Part shown: positions 36,741 to 48,456 of the stretch, one piece after another
Position numbering within the stretch: position 1 is the stretch's first letter
Layout: each line of letters starts with the position of its first letter
Assembly (NCBI GenBank): GCA_003152695.1
Contig: PMAT01000119.1
Location: 4,222 to 57,497 of the forward strand
Source: Acidobacteriaceae bacterium
GTDB taxonomy: Bacteria; Acidobacteriota; Terriglobia; Terriglobales; Acidobacteriaceae
Direction of reading: 5' to 3'
Length of the DNA: 53,276 bases
Program-made: the position numbers and the translations under genes
Notes under the pieces: generated by a model
The model's database searches: none
Told to the model about the DNA's origin: nothing
Seen by the model: the letters and a program-made list of their open reading frames with translations, nothing else

Positions 36741-38174
36741 ATGGATATTGAAATACCAGAAGACAGCGAAACGACCGCACAGAAGGTGACCAGAGTCTTT
36801 GGACGCTTGGCAATCGACAAGCGGCGACTAGGTTTGAGTCAGCTGCAGAAGCGAGGAGTGCCGGCCTATGTTGCGGAATGGGTTTTGGATTCAATCGTGC
36901 CAGGTACAGGTCCGCTCACGCAAGGTGAAGCGGACAAGGTGCAGACATGGGCTTCTCAACGTATCCCTAGTTCGGGGGATCAGGAGGTCATAAAGTATCG
37001 TCTCGTACAAGGCGAAACCGTCAAGATCTTGACTCCCGTTCAGGCAGAGGTTCGACTCCGCCGCGGCAACAGTGAAATCCTTGCAGAATTGAGCTTGCTT
37101 GGTCTCGATGACGTACTGATCGGCGACGACCTATTGCAAGAGTACCCGGATCTTTTGAAGCAGGGTATGTGGGGTGTGACCGAGGTCGTGAACACCTCGA
37201 GTGGCGTAGCCATCACCACATTTCATCCGATGCAGGCGCTCGTGAACTTGGAACTTTACAAAAAGGCCCGCAAGGAGTTTACGTTGCCCGAATGGCAAGA
37301 CCTAATGCTGTTATCAATGGGCTACAGCTCGGATGCCTTTACAGAACACGAGCAGCTGATCCTCCTCAGCCGTTTGTTGCCACTCGTACAGAAGAATCTC
37401 CACGTGATGGAACTCGCTCCCAAAGGAACGGGCAAGAGTTACCTATATGAAAATATTAGTCCTAAAGTACGATTGATCAGTGGTGGGAACATCTCACCTG
37501 CGGTACTGTTTGTCAATAACGCTACTGGCCAATGGGGACTCCTTGCAAGGTTTGCGGTGGTGGTTCTAGATGAAGTTCAAACACTGAAGTTTCTCCAGCC
37601 TGAGGAGATAGTCGGTGGACTAAAGGGTTATCTGGCAAACGGTGTACTCACCCGAGGAGGCCTCTACCAAACTGCGAGTGACTGTAGTTTCGTATTGCTG
37701 GCCAACATTACTCTTGATGAACAACAGCGACCCGTTCGTGATAACCTCGTGGAGGAACTGCCAGATTTTCTTCGTGAGACCGCCTTTTTGGATCGTATCA
37801 AGGGCATCATTCCGGGGTGGGAGACACAAAAGCTCACCAGCCGCTCGTTCGCGGATTCGCTGGGGCTGAAAGCAGACTTCTTCGGGGATGCGTTACTGGC
37901 TCTCCGAGATGATCTAGAGGCCGACCAGTATGCAGCGCGTAGGATTCAGCTGTTGGGCGAGCGGCCCTACAAACGTAATCATGAGGCAGTTCAGTCGATC
38001 GCAAGTGGCATGATGAAGATTCTGTTTCCCCATGGACAGGTTTCAGATCACGATTTTGACAGATTCTGTTTGAAGCCAGCGATGAGGATGCGGCAGCTGA
38101 TATGGGATCAGCTCTACACTCTCGACGCTGAATATCGCCAGTATGAGAAGCTTATAAGATGTTCGTTAACGTGA
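36741..38174 (+). CDS. brxL: Short BrxL-like AAA protein
   Basis: This 477-residue protein has the BrxL ATPase core: the EFTLPEWQDLMLLSMGY segment (179-195), Walker A LAPKGTGKSYLYENIS (225-240), sensor-like LISGGNISPAVLF (245-257), Walker B AVVVLDEVQ (272-280) and LRETAFLDRIKGIIPGWE. It ends shortly after the region where longer BrxL proteins continue into a Lon-like domain, and no Lon remnant is visible downstream. Shorter BrxL-type families of about 450-470 residues exist, so this may be a normal short form, not a truncation. ATG 36741 has GGGAGAG just upstream. It is expected to form a DNA-binding AAA ring with BREX functions. Confidence 0.82.
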   Translation: MDIEIPEDSETTAQKVTRVFGRLAIDKRRLGLSQLQKRGVPAYVAEWVLDSIVPGTGPLTQGEADKVQTWASQRIPSSGDQEVIKYRLVQGETVKILTPVQAEVRLRRGNSEILAELSLLGLDDVLIGDDLLQEYPDLLKQGMWGVTEVVNTSSGVAITTFHPMQALVNLELYKKARKEFTLPEWQDLMLLSMGYSSDAFTEHEQLILLSRLLPLVQKNLHVMELAPKGTGKSYLYENISPKVRLISGGNISPAVLFVNNATGQWGLLARFAVVVLDEVQTLKFLQPEEIVGGLKGYLANGVLTRGGLYQTASDCSFVLLANITLDEQQRPVRDNLVEELPDFLRETAFLDRIKGIIPGWETQKLTSRSFADSLGLKADFFGDALLALRDDLEADQYAARRIQLLGERPYKRNHEAVQSIASGMMKILFPHGQVSDHDFDRFCLKPAMRMRQLIWDQLYTLDAEYRQYEKLIRCSLT

Positions 38175-38344
38175 TGTCCTGCAATGACTTTAGAGTCAGT
38201 AGATCGCTGGAAGTGCTGATTTAAACTGCGTTTACTGGTGTAAAGATAGATTGAATAAGGCTAGTGCCAAGTTGAGAGAGCTTGGGATTTAAGAAATCGC
38301 GGCAATCAGCTTGAATGTTGCGAACGGTGGACTCCGATTTCATC

Positions 38345-39433
38345 ATGGACATTACCGACACAAACCTTTGGCAACAGGCGGCGGGCGATACGGATCGCAA
38401 TTACTCCGAGCTGTGCATCAAGTGGGATGTGATCCTCAATGGACCGGGTTATGCTGGCCCATGGCCAGACTGCGTAAGCACTCTCCGAGCAGATCAATGG
38501 GCTGGGCGGAAGATCACTGATTTGAAGCGATTTTCTGAAGAGATGACGGAGGGTGACCTTGTCGTGTTACGAATTGGTACGGCCACAGTTGTTGCGGTGG
38601 GTCAAATTGTTGGCCGCTACGAATGGCATGACGAATTTGGTGACATAGATGGCTGGGACTTGCAGCACGTCCGTAGGGTCCGATGGCTCTGGAAAAACCT
38701 TGGTTCTCCGAAAGTCTTCGACACATACGATCTTAAGTTAGGTGATACAACGCAAAAACTAAGCGATGGAGCCGTGAAAGAATGGCTTTCTTCACTTGTG
38801 ATTTCAGGAGAAACTTCCAACCGTCCCGTGGTAGAGTTGCCCGCTTTGCAGGAGGACAATGAAGTTTCTATTGCCGCATTATCTGAATTTCTTTTCGATC
38901 ATGGTGTCGCAAGCGCGTCGATTACAAACCTGGTCAACGAAATCGGCGAACTCAGCCGAATTGCAAAGTGGTATCAACGTTCAAGCATGCCGTCCGAACA
39001 TGAAACGGTGGCCTACCTTGTAGTTCCACTATTGCGCGCCTTGGGTTGGACACCGCAGCGAATGGCTGTTGAATGGAACCATGTTGATGTTGCCCTTTTC
39101 GAGCAACTTCCCCGAGCGGATCAATCTCTTCAAGTTGTAGTAGAGGCCAAGAAGATGGACAAATCTTGCCTCAGTGCAAAACCACAGGCAATGGCATATG
39201 CGGACGGTAAGCCTGGATGTCAGCGGCTAATCGTCACTGATGGTCTTCGTTACGGCGTCTATGTCCGTCAGGGGAAACAAGAAGTCTTTCACCTGAATGC
39301 ATATTTAAACTTAACGCGACTGAGACGCAGTTGCCCTGTTTATGAGTGCAGGGGAGCCAAAGACGCTCTATTGGCAATGGCTCCAGAATGGAAGTCGATA
39401 GAAAATATAGGGACTTCTGAACCAGACATTTGA
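38345..39433 (+). CDS. EVE/PUA-like domain fused to PD-(D/E)XK (HsdR-N/Mrr-like) nuclease
   Basis: This 362-residue protein has two parts. Residues 8-116 (WQQAAGDTDRNY, then EGDLVVLRIGTATVVAVGQIV, then DGWDLQHVRRVRW) look like the EVE/PUA fold, which reads modified bases. Residues 215-300 carry a nuclease core: E219, D248 in NHVDVAL and EAKK (267-270), the type I HsdR-N/Mrr pattern. ATG 38345 is preferred to an in-frame TTG 30 nt upstream because the MDITDTNLWQQAAGD start matches the domain. It is the last + strand gene, tail-to-tail with the PAPS-reductase gene. A modification-sensing nuclease in this setting could discriminate phosphorothioated or glucosylated DNA; that is inference. Confidence 0.7.
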   Translation: MDITDTNLWQQAAGDTDRNYSELCIKWDVILNGPGYAGPWPDCVSTLRADQWAGRKITDLKRFSEEMTEGDLVVLRIGTATVVAVGQIVGRYEWHDEFGDIDGWDLQHVRRVRWLWKNLGSPKVFDTYDLKLGDTTQKLSDGAVKEWLSSLVISGETSNRPVVELPALQEDNEVSIAALSEFLFDHGVASASITNLVNEIGELSRIAKWYQRSSMPSEHETVAYLVVPLLRALGWTPQRMAVEWNHVDVALFEQLPRADQSLQVVVEAKKMDKSCLSAKPQAMAYADGKPGCQRLIVTDGLRYGVYVRQGKQEVFHLNAYLNLTRLRRSCPVYECRGAKDALLAMAPEWKSIENIGTSEPDI

Positions 39434-39700: not shown

Positions 39701-40507
39701 CTATAAGGAGCAAATCAGGCACGGCTCGGTGTCATCTTCATCATCAAGCACGTTGCCGAGAATCTGAAACAGTTTCTGCTCCTTGTTGTTATGCTTCTCT
39801 TTTTCAAGCGCCTCCAGATGCTTCCGCTTGATCTCGGCGATGCGCTCCGGGTTCTCCAGTTCCTCTAAACTCTCACTCTGACTCCATGTGTAGCGAGCTC
39901 CCGTAATCGAATCGTACTTTTCATATTCCTTTGCCTTCTCGAAGTATTCTGGATGCCGCTCTTTTAAGCCTACCCATTCTGCCTTTCGCTGAAAAAAGCA
40001 AAAATAACATCCGGATCGAGTGCGCCACTCGTAGTACTTGGGTAGTCCTAGGCCGGCTTCTTCTAAGATCCGCAGAACGTCAGCCTCGACGATTCCGCCT
40101 TCTTTGAATGGGTACACCGCCTTGATGTTGGGCTTTGTCGAGAGGTACCCATCTCGATACTCATCAGCGCGTATGCCCACATAACTGATGACGTCGTCCT
40201 CGCCGACGAACTCCTCAAACGGACGGATTTTCAGCATCTTGGTGCACCACCGCATTCGGCTTGAGGGCAGATAATTCCCGTACATCTTGAGCCAGTGGTC
40301 GAAGCCTTTGGCAGCATTTAGCCGTATAACGGGTTTCCCAAGATACGCCTGGAGACGGTCAAGGAACTCGTACGTTTCGGGCAGCTCCTTGTCGGTGTCG
40401 CAAAATACGTACTCCATCTGCGGCACCTTGTCGCGCATGTAAACTGCAAGAGCGGCACTATCTTTGCCGCCAGACAAACCCAAGATGTGGCGAACAACTT
40501 TACCCAC
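39701..40507 (-). CDS. PAPS-reductase-family ATP pyrophosphatase (SspD/DndC/BrxP-like)
   Basis: The 268-residue protein has the PP-loop SGGKDS (12-17), a family Cys in WCTKMLKIRPFE (C88), and GCYFC (C167, C170) plus a C-terminal CLIC (C263, C266), a plausible Fe-S or metal set. DndC and SspD use this chemistry to activate the DNA backbone for sulfur insertion; BrxP of BREX type 4 is the same family. The start is GTG 40507, with AGGAG about 8 nt upstream, overlapping the ATPase stop by 8 nt. It is the last gene of the - strand operon. No cysteine desulfurase (SspA/DndA) is in the window, so sulfur would have to come from a host IscS-type enzyme. Confidence 0.82.
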   Translation of the reverse strand: MGKVVRHILGLSGGKDSAALAVYMRDKVPQMEYVFCDTDKELPETYEFLDRLQAYLGKPVIRLNAAKGFDHWLKMYGNYLPSSRMRWCTKMLKIRPFEEFVGEDDVISYVGIRADEYRDGYLSTKPNIKAVYPFKEGGIVEADVLRILEEAGLGLPKYYEWRTRSGCYFCFFQRKAEWVGLKERHPEYFEKAKEYEKYDSITGARYTWSQSESLEELENPERIAEIKRKHLEALEKEKHNNKEQKLFQILGNVLDDEDDTEPCLICSL

Positions 40508-45438: not shown

Positions 45439-46431
45439 TTATTGATGACGAGGGTGTGTTGATTCTCCGTTGGCGACAGCTTGCAACTCGCGAATGACCC
45501 AGAACAGCCTCCGGGCCGATACATAGCTGTGCTGACCACCGTGGCGAAGATCGGTGATACGGGATTTCGAGATCAGCTTTTGGATTTTCCGCTGCGACAG
45601 TCCCAATCCTAGCTCCGAGTGCACGATAGCGGCTGCTTCTTCTTCCGAGATGCCGGGCAAAGCCTGGCCGGCATGAAACCGGGAACGCCATTGCTCCAGC
45701 TCCAAGGCCTGGCGGGTGAAGATTGCCTCCAGTTCGTGGGTGCCGGCAAACAACAACCCGCAGTGCGGCGGTTGATCCAGCAGTTCCCGTAGGGTCTCCA
45801 GGCACGCAATCGACAGATGCTGGGCTTCGTCAAAGACCAGCACCACCTTGCGCGGACTGAGATCGAAACGCAGATTGCGCAGAATCCGGTCGACCGTGCC
45901 CATTCCGACTGCTCCACAGCTTTGGGCTACCCGCTTCATCAGATCCAGCGAGTGAATTCCCTGACGAACGTAGACGTAGTAAGCTCTCCGGCCCTCTCCG
46001 TTCTTGGCGATCTCTGACCGGTTCAACTCTGCTATCAGGTGCTGCAGGACGTAGGTCTTCTGGGTTCCCGGGGCGCCGTAGAGGTAATAGGCCCGGCCAT
46101 GATCCAGGGCTTCGTAGAAGTACCGTCGCAGCAAGCGGGCATTCTCGGTTTCATAGAGCTTGCCTGAGCTGACTGCGGGAGTCGCAATGGGGTGGGTCGC
46201 AATGAAATCGCGGATCGCGGTCCGGATGAGCCCGTCGTTGGAGGAGATCCGGCTGTAGTGGCCATTCAGAAACTGATAGACCGTTTCCCGGGCGTAGTTG
46301 ATGCGGCGGGCAAAATCTGGCGGTGTCATGCCGGTCCGGGCCAGGTAATCCTGCAATTCCAGCCGGACTTCGGTGGCTTCCGGCAAGCTTGCCGCCAGCA
46401 GCTGTCGGCGTACCGCGTAGGAAAGAGCCAT
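45439..46431 (-). CDS. MuB/TnsC-like transposition ATPase with N-terminal HTH
   Basis: This 330-residue protein has an N-terminal Cro-like helix-turn-helix (PDFARRINYARETVYQFLNGHYS, about 38-60), as in MuB, then an AAA core with Walker A GAPGTQKTYVL (119-129) and Walker B VVLVFDEAQHL (about 196-206). The Walker A has Gln where Gly normally precedes Lys; this variant should be checked for ATP binding, although conservative family use is possible. It starts 3 nt after the transposase stop. MuB-type proteins choose target DNA and activate the transposase. Confidence 0.8.
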   Translation of the reverse strand: MALSYAVRRQLLAASLPEATEVRLELQDYLARTGMTPPDFARRINYARETVYQFLNGHYSRISSNDGLIRTAIRDFIATHPIATPAVSSGKLYETENARLLRRYFYEALDHGRAYYLYGAPGTQKTYVLQHLIAELNRSEIAKNGEGRRAYYVYVRQGIHSLDLMKRVAQSCGAVGMGTVDRILRNLRFDLSPRKVVLVFDEAQHLSIACLETLRELLDQPPHCGLLFAGTHELEAIFTRQALELEQWRSRFHAGQALPGISEEEAAAIVHSELGLGLSQRKIQKLISKSRITDLRHGGQHSYVSARRLFWVIRELQAVANGESTHPRHQ

Positions 46432-46434
46432 GGC

Positions 46435-48447
46435 TTATTCTCCGTCCGTCAGTTCCCGAACAATGTCGTCGATGAAGTCGGGACGGGCTACGGTGTGCAG
46501 ATCTTGCGACCGTACCAAGGTTGGCGGCGGCGACTGTTCTGCTCTTGGCGTTTCGGCTCGATCTCCATTCTGGAGCTGCGAGATCTCGCTACGGTCTCCA
46601 GCACGAGCCCGTATCCCCGACAAGCCAGTAACGTAATCGGCGATTGCCTTACGAGCCGTGCGCCTGATCCGCATTGAAGCTCGAATGTCTTCGTGGCTCA
46701 CCGGCCCGCGGGTGATCAGCTTCTGGGCCCGCAGCCGTCCCAGGAGCCGGCCGTCCAGATCCAGGGCGATGGCTTCACCCAGATTGGCTGGGTCGCAAGC
46801 CACTAGGACATCGCGCTCGATTTCCAGAAAGAGCTTGGCCAGACTCTCGCCATCGGCCGGTTCGTAGCGCTCGCCGTACAATTGCACGCATCCGCCCTCC
46901 GACACCTTGCGCCGCTGCCGGTCCCAGAACAAGGCATAGAGAACTTCCGGACTCTCAATCAGTCTTTTCTGGCCTGGTAGGAGCAGCTCGTTAAAGACCT
47001 CATCCGGAGTACGGCCTCGCATGCCTCGCCCAGTATGGGGGTGCTGCGAGTTGTATTCTGCGATCCATTGCCGTGCCGTAGCGATGAACTCGCTGGCCAG
47101 GGGTAAAGGGGAGCTTTTCCGTTTGCCCTTCAGAAAGGCCTGGTGCTCCTTCAGGGCAGCCGTGCACTGCTCCGGCCGGTCTTTTGGACCTGGTCCGCAG
47201 TAGGAGGGCCAGAGGCAATCAAATCGCTTGCGCACCGTTCCAAACCAGCTCTCGATCAGCTTCGACTGGGGATGGCGGGGTAGGCAGTACTGGGGCTGGA
47301 TGCCCAGCCTGACCAGTACGCCACTACATTCCGGAGAAAAGTCGATGCGACCGACTTTCTCGTAGTCTTTGCCGTTATCCACATAGAGGATCTGGGGAAT
47401 CCCAAAGCTCTCAATCCCCACTCGCAGGGCCGAGCTGATGGTGTGTGAGCTGGGGGTGGCCGACCAGGCGGTGCCGACGATCTTGCGGGAGCGCATATCA
47501 ATGATGGCAGTCAGCCAGGGCCGGACCGCCGCATTGGTCGATACGCCGGAGAACAGGTCGTTGCGCACCCAGACATCATGCTGGCCATGGTCAGAGACCC
47601 AGATCTGGTTAGGTACCAGCGTTTCGAAGTCGGTCAGCAGGTAGGGTTCACAACGTTCCTGAAACTGTCGCTCGCCTTCCCGGCTCAGAATCAGCAAGGG
47701 CTTGGGCAGCTGTTGCAGGTAAGACCGGACGGCGCTGTAGCTGGGTGGTCTGGTGCAATCAGGCTCGAGGCTCCGCAGATCGCGCAGCAAGGCCCGGTAG
47801 ACCAGCCGAATCGACAGCCGCTCACCCAGGTACTTGTTCTCCAGATATGCGCGGACCGCGGGATGGGCTTTGAGAAACCGCGACTTTCCCTTATCCGAGC
47901 GAACTCGGTCGACCAGACCCGCATAGCCCAGCTTGCGGTACTGTGCATACCAGTTCCAGAGCGTTCGGGCGCTGAGGTGGTGCTGATTGGCGAGGTAGCC
48001 GACCAACGAGCTCATACTTCGCACGGCAACTCCGCCGGCGGTACGAAACGTTGGACGGGATCGCTGGCTGCGGCTGCGGAATTCCACCAGCGGTGCAATG
48101 GCCTCCAGGCGCTTCACGGCCTGGGCGTTCTGCCTTGCGGAAAAGTTGAGGCGTTCGGGTTCGGTGACCTCGGGCAGAGAAGCAAACAGGTTGGATTGGT
48201 TCAGATTCGAGCGAAGCGCCAGAGCCGTGCAGTCTGGTCCAGACAGCAGCGGCTGCTTGAGGAATTTCAACTGCGCTTCGACTGGCAAGGACGATAGCGC
48301 ATATTCGCGCTGGCCTCGTCCGTCGCGCCTTACTTGTTTCGAGGGCCGGTGCCGCAACTGGCCCTCTCTCGCCAACCGGCGCACATGCTGAGGGTGCCAG
48401 CCGGTCAGATCAGTCACATCTTGAATACTCAGCCAATTGTTGGGCAT
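46435..48447 (-). CDS. Mu-like DDE transposase
   Basis: This 670-residue transposase begins with a MerR-like HTH (SIQDVTDLTGWHPQHVRRLAREGQL), a second DNA-binding region, and an RNase H-fold catalytic core: D in WVSDHGQHDVW (about 282), D in YVDNGKDYEKV (about 354) and E in KLIESWFGTVRKRF (about 399), then a beta-barrel (VQLYGERYEP). This matches MuA/Tn552-type DDE enzymes. The ATG at 48447 is used; a TTG 9 nt upstream is possible. Its stop is 3 nt from the ATPase start. It catalyses strand transfer at transposon ends. Confidence 0.9.
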   Translation of the reverse strand: MPNNWLSIQDVTDLTGWHPQHVRRLAREGQLRHRPSKQVRRDGRGQREYALSSLPVEAQLKFLKQPLLSGPDCTALALRSNLNQSNLFASLPEVTEPERLNFSARQNAQAVKRLEAIAPLVEFRSRSQRSRPTFRTAGGVAVRSMSSLVGYLANQHHLSARTLWNWYAQYRKLGYAGLVDRVRSDKGKSRFLKAHPAVRAYLENKYLGERLSIRLVYRALLRDLRSLEPDCTRPPSYSAVRSYLQQLPKPLLILSREGERQFQERCEPYLLTDFETLVPNQIWVSDHGQHDVWVRNDLFSGVSTNAAVRPWLTAIIDMRSRKIVGTAWSATPSSHTISSALRVGIESFGIPQILYVDNGKDYEKVGRIDFSPECSGVLVRLGIQPQYCLPRHPQSKLIESWFGTVRKRFDCLWPSYCGPGPKDRPEQCTAALKEHQAFLKGKRKSSPLPLASEFIATARQWIAEYNSQHPHTGRGMRGRTPDEVFNELLLPGQKRLIESPEVLYALFWDRQRRKVSEGGCVQLYGERYEPADGESLAKLFLEIERDVLVACDPANLGEAIALDLDGRLLGRLRAQKLITRGPVSHEDIRASMRIRRTARKAIADYVTGLSGIRARAGDRSEISQLQNGDRAETPRAEQSPPPTLVRSQDLHTVARPDFIDDIVRELTDGE

Positions 48448-48456
48448 GAAAACCAA

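Follow-up and report, generated by a model that had tools for sequence, protein, structure and literature searches.

Fusions that join an EVE or a YTH-like domain to a PD-(D/E)XK nuclease have been published, and the accessible part of that survey counts the EVE-PD(D/E)XK proteins among the putative type IV enzymes (PMC7641849). According to the same text, the McrB protein of T. gammatolerans is said to bind 6mA in DNA via its YTH domain (PMC7641849). VcaM4I, a characterised EVE-HNH modification-dependent endonuclease, flips the base that carries the modification and takes it up in a hydrophobic pocket made by P24, W82 and Y130, as described in the available sections of its report (PMC7897488). 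In addition, auxiliary PD-(D/E)XK nucleases that adjoin BREX cores are described in the accessible part of PMC12839542. Here, we analysed a stretch of 53,276 nucleotides (hereafter, the window) from the 4.5-Mb genome of an Acidobacteriaceae bacterium (assembly GCA_003152695.1, contig PMAT01000119.1). It encodes, between a BREX-type block on the forward strand and an Ssp-type phosphorothioation block on the reverse strand, a protein composed of an N-terminal reader domain and a C-terminal nuclease domain. This fusion type is already described, and the window protein is a further example of it. The protein has a two-domain architecture in which both folds are seen by model, it has conserved catalytic residues, and it is under selection at the protein level. 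Probably, this single chain works without an NTPase as a modification-dependent (type IV-like) restriction nuclease.

The coordinates of the gene, of its domains and of its neighbours are given in Table 1. The second of the two starts is favoured because Met11 aligns with the first residue of all six other rows of the reader alignment A4, one of which (L044) is a remote reader-only protein. Residues are numbered here in the 372-aa ORF, in which D258, E277 and K279 correspond to D248, E267 and K269 counted from position 38345. The best identity was found with a homologue from Cupriavidus, 64.6 % over 94 % of the length (E 2e-150), and both domains are conserved far beyond chance. In ten pairs drawn from five genes, pN was lower than pS in every pair (pN 0.19-0.42; pS 0.72-0.88, near saturation), and the protein is therefore under selection. 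Between positions 38000 and 39900, scans returned one promoter-like site against 1.9 expected and two terminator-like sites against 1.8 expected, which is the level of shuffled sequence.

Table 1 Features of the locus, in positions of the window.
Feature	Position	Strand	Basis or remark
EVE/YTH-like-PD-(D/E)XK protein ORF	38315..39433	+	372 aa from first ATG; likelier start 38345 (362 aa)
Reader domain, predicted EVE/YTH-type PUA fold, residues ~16-170	38360..38824	+	AlphaFold2 model, Foldseek, VIA, PADLOC, hhalign
Helical lead-in and predicted HsdR-N-type PD-(D/E)XK nuclease, residues ~181-356	38855..39382	+	Alignment, model, structure matches
Conserved E228	38996	+	Alignments A1, A2, A5
Catalytic core, D258 to E277-x-K279	39086..39151	+	Alignments A1, A2, A5
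Conserved Q291	39185	+	Alignments A1, A2, A5
Divergent DUF4007/SspB-like protein	29088	+	Pfam/PADLOC scans
157-aa protein	29908	+	Without family match
1391-aa ATPase-sized protein	30400	+	Weak SspC match only, 2.4e-7
PglZ	34536	+	Pfam/PADLOC scans
BrxL	36741..38174	+	Pfam BrxL_ATPase 7.9e-95; PADLOC BrxL 1.5e-220
SspD, PAPS-reductase-like, convergent	39701..40507	-	Pfam PAPS_reduct 8.6e-12; PADLOC SspD 9.5e-122
SspC	40500	-	Convergent with ORF; Pfam/PADLOC scans
SspB	44021	-	Convergent with ORF; Pfam/PADLOC scans

On the forward strand, the distance from the end of BrxL to the ORF is 140 bases, or 170 if the likelier start is taken; SspD, SspC and SspB converge on the gene from the other side. 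The segment 29088-44962 can be described as two blocks, the SspBCD set standing apart from the second one; together they hold two DUF4007-type proteins, SspC and a second large protein (1391 aa), SspD, PglZ and BrxL. Next to SspB, positions 45439-48456 of the reverse strand encode an AAA ATPase and an rve/Mu-type integrase (TniB/TniA-like by eye), which suggests that a transposon carries or borders the island. Further upstream, the segment 10796-27477 holds a cluster in which an AAA protein, SbcD-like and SbcC-like proteins, an exonuclease-like gene and an AddB/AddA-like nuclease-helicase pair were recognised by eye from the translations.

The full-length AlphaFold2 model, made from six sequences, is modest (mean pLDDT 63.8, pTM 0.46), and the mutual placement of reader and nuclease is not fixed by it. 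Across the 17 ten-residue blocks of residues 11-180, pLDDT lies at 66-91. In VIA, the top match of this model is PH1033, which we take to be an EVE-type protein (Z 11.4, rmsd 2.5, 117 residues), followed by 2hd9 (PH1033 again, Z 11.3), MJECL36 (Z 11.1) and, at rank 4, VcaM4I (6yex; Z 10.6, rmsd 3.7, 130 residues). The EVE-type entries PH1033 and VcaM4I stand near YTHDC1 in this comparison (Z 10.1, rmsd 3.4, 135 residues), whereas in Foldseek the YTH domains lead, with YTHDF2 first and PH1033 at rank 13. Four Foldseek reader matches have E <= 0.001, and the target TM-scores of the first rows are moderate, about 0.43-0.64. No SRA or ASCH entry is among the best 50 VIA rows for the full-length model, which is an absence only and excludes nothing. 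The Pfam EVE model (PF01878) does not match the window protein at E <= 1 and is not among the five families matched by any of the seven members of alignment A1; the domain is called EVE/YTH-like here because the Pfam EVE model does not match.

Profile comparisons agree with the structural matches. The PADLOC model PDC-S02 matches residues 68-129 with its positions 64-121 of 346 (E 8.1e-8); a match over the whole of PDC-S02 was not found, the best model covering this segment only. Aligned by hhalign with five reader domains, four from McrB-like proteins and one from an Mrr-like protein, the seven family readers match with 98.8 % probability over 105 columns (residues ~17-127) and an E-value of 6.6e-17, which is valid for one single comparison; the five domains were found via the PDC-S02 model and are not fully independent of the PADLOC match. 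Pfam confirmed an AAA_5 ATPase in the one of the four McrB-like proteins that was submitted to it. Furthermore, in tblastn with the relative from a viral contig (L040), the reader half reaches plasmid AAA-family ATPases at E 1e-3 to 7e-3. Six aromatic residues, W19, F73, Y102, F108, W114 and W124, are identical in all six rows of alignment A3. The VcaM4I pocket residues could not be mapped onto the window protein by rough numbering, and the reader profile A4 found three chance-level rows only among PDB sequences. Model comparison and profile alignment together support a predicted EVE/PUA-superfamily fold for the N-terminal domain.

The C-terminal half has a single Pfam match at E <= 1, HSDR_N (E 0.2). 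The same Pfam search shows no NTPase domain, and little of the chain lies outside the two modelled domains. Alignment A5 consists of the window protein, three family members and five remote HsdR-N-like proteins; residues E228, D258, E277, K279, Q291 and Y295 are kept in all nine rows. Four of the remote rows were chosen from 24 PF13588 places with an E-x-K filter, and in these E277 and K279 follow from the choice; no motif filter was applied to the family members or to the other positions. The nuclease model built on A5 is good (pLDDT 88.2, pTM 0.85). The best solved match by sequence profile, which includes the remote rows, is the HsdR subunit 3h1t (E 0.0013). It is also the best match of the model in Foldseek, at E 2.2e-3, with no match at E <= 0.001, and in VIA it has Z 11.6 with an rmsd of 5.8 over 119 residues and 21 % identity. 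The type IIG enzymes DrdV (Z 9.9) and BpuSI (Z 8.7) come next in VIA, where the background for this model is marked by a mitoribosomal protein at Z 7.1. These data support the prediction that the C-terminal domain is a PD-(D/E)XK nuclease of the HsdR-N type, and its active site, D258, E277 and K279, is intact in the window protein.

The first-pass annotation, made from the sequence alone, had placed the start at 38345, a modified-base reader of EVE/PUA type in the region WQQAAGD...RRVRWLW and a restriction nuclease core in VDVAL...EAKK. The start agrees with the alignment given above, the first region lies in the conserved reader domain and the second is part of the predicted PD-(D/E)XK core. 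The annotation would have been abandoned for lack of an EVE/PUA fold or for loss of the catalytic residues in relatives; the fold is predicted, and D258, E277 and K279 are present in all five relatives with a readable nuclease (L003, L005, L006, L007 and L040).

Since most of the displayed reader matches are eukaryotic m6A-RNA readers, we considered an effector whose YTH-like domain would read methylated RNA and whose nuclease would attack RNA or serve in abortive infection. RNA is indeed the predicted target of some YTH-like-domain relatives of McrBC, in the accessible text of PMC11090510. However, the HsdR-N type is a DNA-cutting fold, and the DNA-binding reader of VcaM4I scores on a par with the RNA readers. 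We regard an RNA target as very improbable.

Compared with described enzymes, the window protein shares with the EVE- and YTH-like-PD(D/E)XK fusions a PUA-superfamily reader, a PD-(D/E)XK nuclease and a presumed defence role; it differs in that its nuclease is of the HsdR-N type and its reader has no Pfam EVE match, although the exact family may be in the published list, part of which is accessible (PMC7641849). With VcaM4I it shares the order of an N-terminal EVE fold, a helical linker and a C-terminal nuclease. The VcaM4I nuclease is HNH and not PD-(D/E)XK, the identity is 6 %, and activity on 5mC/5hmC is shown for VcaM4I only. The McrB-like ATPases with EVE/YTH-type specificity domains have a reader that is homologous by profile, but McrB itself is an AAA+ motor and acts together with McrC, while the window protein has its own nuclease and no ATPase match. 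The PADLOC candidate PDC-S02 shares the reader-domain match; its models match the reader only, and those of its full-length members that were examined end in an Mrr-like half (by eye). Finally, the type I HsdR N-terminal nuclease (3h1t) shares the nuclease fold and the order of motifs, and differs from the window protein, which has no helicase/translocase and is fused to a reader.

Seven homologue loci were found besides the window. They are in a C. metallidurans CH34 megaplasmid (64.6 %; the record of a second strain scores equal), Paraburkholderia sp. (63 %), an IMG/VR viral contig (L040, 61 %), the genomes G190 (46 %) and G026 (35 %), a Photobacterium plasmid (30 %) and the genome G429, which has a stand-alone reader only. 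Remote reader-only matches, a 178-aa Pseudoalteromonas protein and three AAA ATPases, were not counted. The family is rare, present in 3 of the 396 genomes sampled in the phylum of the window, its own genome included. Both domains are intact in four of the seven homologues (L003, L005, L007 and L040). The Photobacterium gene starts beside an IS3 element and is without the first half of the reader, and the nuclease frame of the G026 copy is broken. No match was found in a PDB sequence search, with the window protein alone or with profile A1, and no relative in the phage record search. NCBIfam has no match to the window protein; other members gave three weak rows, the best of them restrict_EcoAI (E 0.0044). 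Of three viral-contig scans, the first found no relative and the second and third found L040. In Foldseek against viral models, a 336-aa Myoviridae protein gave the sole row with E < 0.001 (rmsd 22), and rank 4 was a 396-aa phage protein annotated as a type I restriction R N-terminal domain (E 5.1e-3); neither was used, given the weak full-length model.

The copies occur in unrelated genomic settings. The Paraburkholderia gene lies 3.5 kb after a phage tip-protein gene, itself after a minor-tail gene, the viral-contig copy is 1.4 kb from two recombinase genes (one tested by Pfam), and the C. metallidurans copy has a TnsB-like gene at a distance of about 5 kb. The neighbours of the G190 copy are ordinary-looking by eye, with no defence island, and a defence or mobile setting is therefore not common to all copies. 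In G026 (L042 8081-8934), the gene is flanked by a DUF499 ATPase and a methylase with DUF1156, a domain which we take to mark the methylase of DUF499-centred BREX-related systems. This setting resembles such systems as described in the accessible part of PMC12839542. The reader is kept in this copy. A nuclease lost next to a methylase would be in line with self-toxicity, but this is a single example, and the break could come from a faulty assembly. The reader type also occurs with other partners. It is joined to an Mrr-like nuclease (L014/L015) and to a different PD-(D/E)XK-like nuclease (L021/L032), types assigned by eye. A stand-alone reader of 159 aa lies directly upstream of an AbiE-like gene pair (L008 1339-1818, by eye), and an McrB-like AAA protein of 831 aa (L020 796-3291) has this reader followed by a Pfam EVE stretch (residues 400-527, E 6.5e-6), that is, tandem readers.

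The prophage-like surroundings of L007 and L040 are in keeping with an anti-phage gene that acts by itself. In such surroundings, and in those with mobile elements, a nuclease could also serve for exclusion, and modification dependence is itself a prediction; the protein could then be a modification-independent nuclease, type II-like or serving mobile-element exclusion, with a PUA-type domain for DNA binding only. Such an enzyme would need to spare its host, usually through a partner methylase, and none is adjacent in the window; G026 has an adjacent methylase, but the nuclease frame is broken there. We find this alternative quite unlikely.

The position of the gene in the window raises another possibility, that it is a functional part of the PT (phosphorothioate)-based BREX/Ssp machinery, and that phosphorothioate marks or BrxL/PglZ guide this effector, license it or keep it inhibited. 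It lies between BrxL and SspD on the strand of BrxL, and its GC content (0.50) is near that of its neighbours (0.51-0.54) and below that of the other measured window genes (0.56-0.63). The DUF499-DUF1156 setting of the G026 relative and the auxiliary nucleases described beside BREX cores point the same way. Against this, the gene was found in none of six PT/BREX loci (L077-L082; tblastn, E <= 1e-3). Four of these have relatives of PglZ and BrxL and comprise all non-self PglZ matches found (1 of 395 other genomes of the phylum, and 3 of 3 plasmid records). The other two have only the SspBCD block and were taken from 64 plasmid records with an SspD relative, among which Thermomicrobium and Pseudanabaena galeata also appear, although they entered via PglZ. 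The core of the window comprises eight genes, those for SspB, SspC, SspD, the DUF4007-like protein, the 157-aa protein, the large ATPase, PglZ and BrxL; the Thermomicrobium roseum plasmid (L077) has a relative of each, all in one direction, together with a cysteine desulfurase, and no relative of the reader-nuclease gene. Seven of the eight were found by tblastn in Pseudanabaena (the small one was unmatched), four in Annamia (DUF4007-like, ATPase, PglZ and BrxL) and two in G235 (PglZ and BrxL), where the contig ends just before PglZ (L078: 225 bases). Chlorohelix and Trichormus have the SspB-C-D block with other partners. In Pseudanabaena, genes annotated as a MazF-family toxin and a Uma2-family endonuclease lie inside the SspBCD/BREX block (L079 4966-7418).

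In the opposite direction, relatives of the window BREX/Ssp genes were found around none of the seven homologues (tblastn, E <= 1e-3) in 3.8-37 kb of flanking DNA (L043 3.8 kb, L040 10.8 kb, the other five 19-37 kb); weak matches in L005 and L006 were only to other window genes, AddA-like and TniA-like. A conserved association with BREX/Ssp was thus rejected both ways, and so was a core component of these systems, which would be present in related loci. Since the gene is absent from all six PT/BREX loci, it is accessory here. No family or fold match points to phosphorothioate binding. With these data, membership of the gene in the PT-based machinery appears unlikely. A narrower form of it, a dedicated partner whose reader would sense base-modified phage DNA or DNA without the host sulfur mark, and whose nuclease would be licensed by BrxL/PglZ or SspBCD, seems to us rather improbable; if true, a single island would check incoming DNA for its backbone mark as well as for its bases. 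In the 15 literature matches listed, of 23, for the gene block, the word SspBCD was not found. No account of this fusion beside an Ssp/BREX block is among the literature matches listed for the fusion; the supplementary lists of PMC12839542, a source accessible in part, may hold it. The first-pass annotation was right to put the gene at the centre of a convergent locus and outside the standard BREX and Ssp sets. Conservation of the fusion next to sspD/brxL, which it had proposed to check, was not found in the six PT/BREX loci or the seven homologue loci, and its suggestion of guidance or inhibition by phosphorothioate marks is unsupported.

We therefore return to the modification-dependent restriction nuclease as the preferred reading. 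We infer modification dependence because the chain joins a reader to a nuclease, has no NTPase match, and has a reader homologous to those of McrB-like and Mrr-like proteins. The N-terminal EVE/YTH-like domain would bind incoming DNA and hold a modified base which, by analogy with VcaM4I, is probably flipped and received by a pocket of aromatic residues. The HsdR-N-type PD-(D/E)XK domain would then cleave the bound DNA; use of Mg2+ and action as a dimer are probable. In the window, the enzyme would act as an independent second layer inside the PT-based BREX/Ssp island: the host would carry its self-mark on the backbone of its DNA, and the presumed targets of the enzyme would be phages that use modified bases as a cover. 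A PT mark sits on the backbone, and one cell could therefore have a PT-marking system and a base reader side by side. Points against this reading are the modest full-length model, the moderate TM-scores, the missing Pfam EVE match and the ordinary neighbours in G190, and, for the predicted nuclease, the Foldseek E-values above 0.001 and the mitoribosomal protein in VIA.

The nature of the trigger can be narrowed by the host genome, which has C5-methylase matches in two frames (C8 and C114), N6_N4_Mtase matches in two places and N6_Mtase matches in three places, one of them weak. Because the host encodes homologues of C5- and N6-type methylases, a generic 5mC/6mA trigger is disfavoured; an enzyme with a broad reader would turn on its own host if neither context nor regulation held it back. 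A hypermodification of phage DNA, or a mark read within a narrow sequence context, would agree better with these matches.

The window protein thus adds a compact, mobile candidate to the modification-dependent enzymes, with a reader that may see something other than 5mC/6mA. A possible use is the detection of modified phage DNA. Moreover, the locus offers a testable idea, that base-modification-dependent nucleases can be kept safely by hosts whose self-mark is on the DNA backbone.
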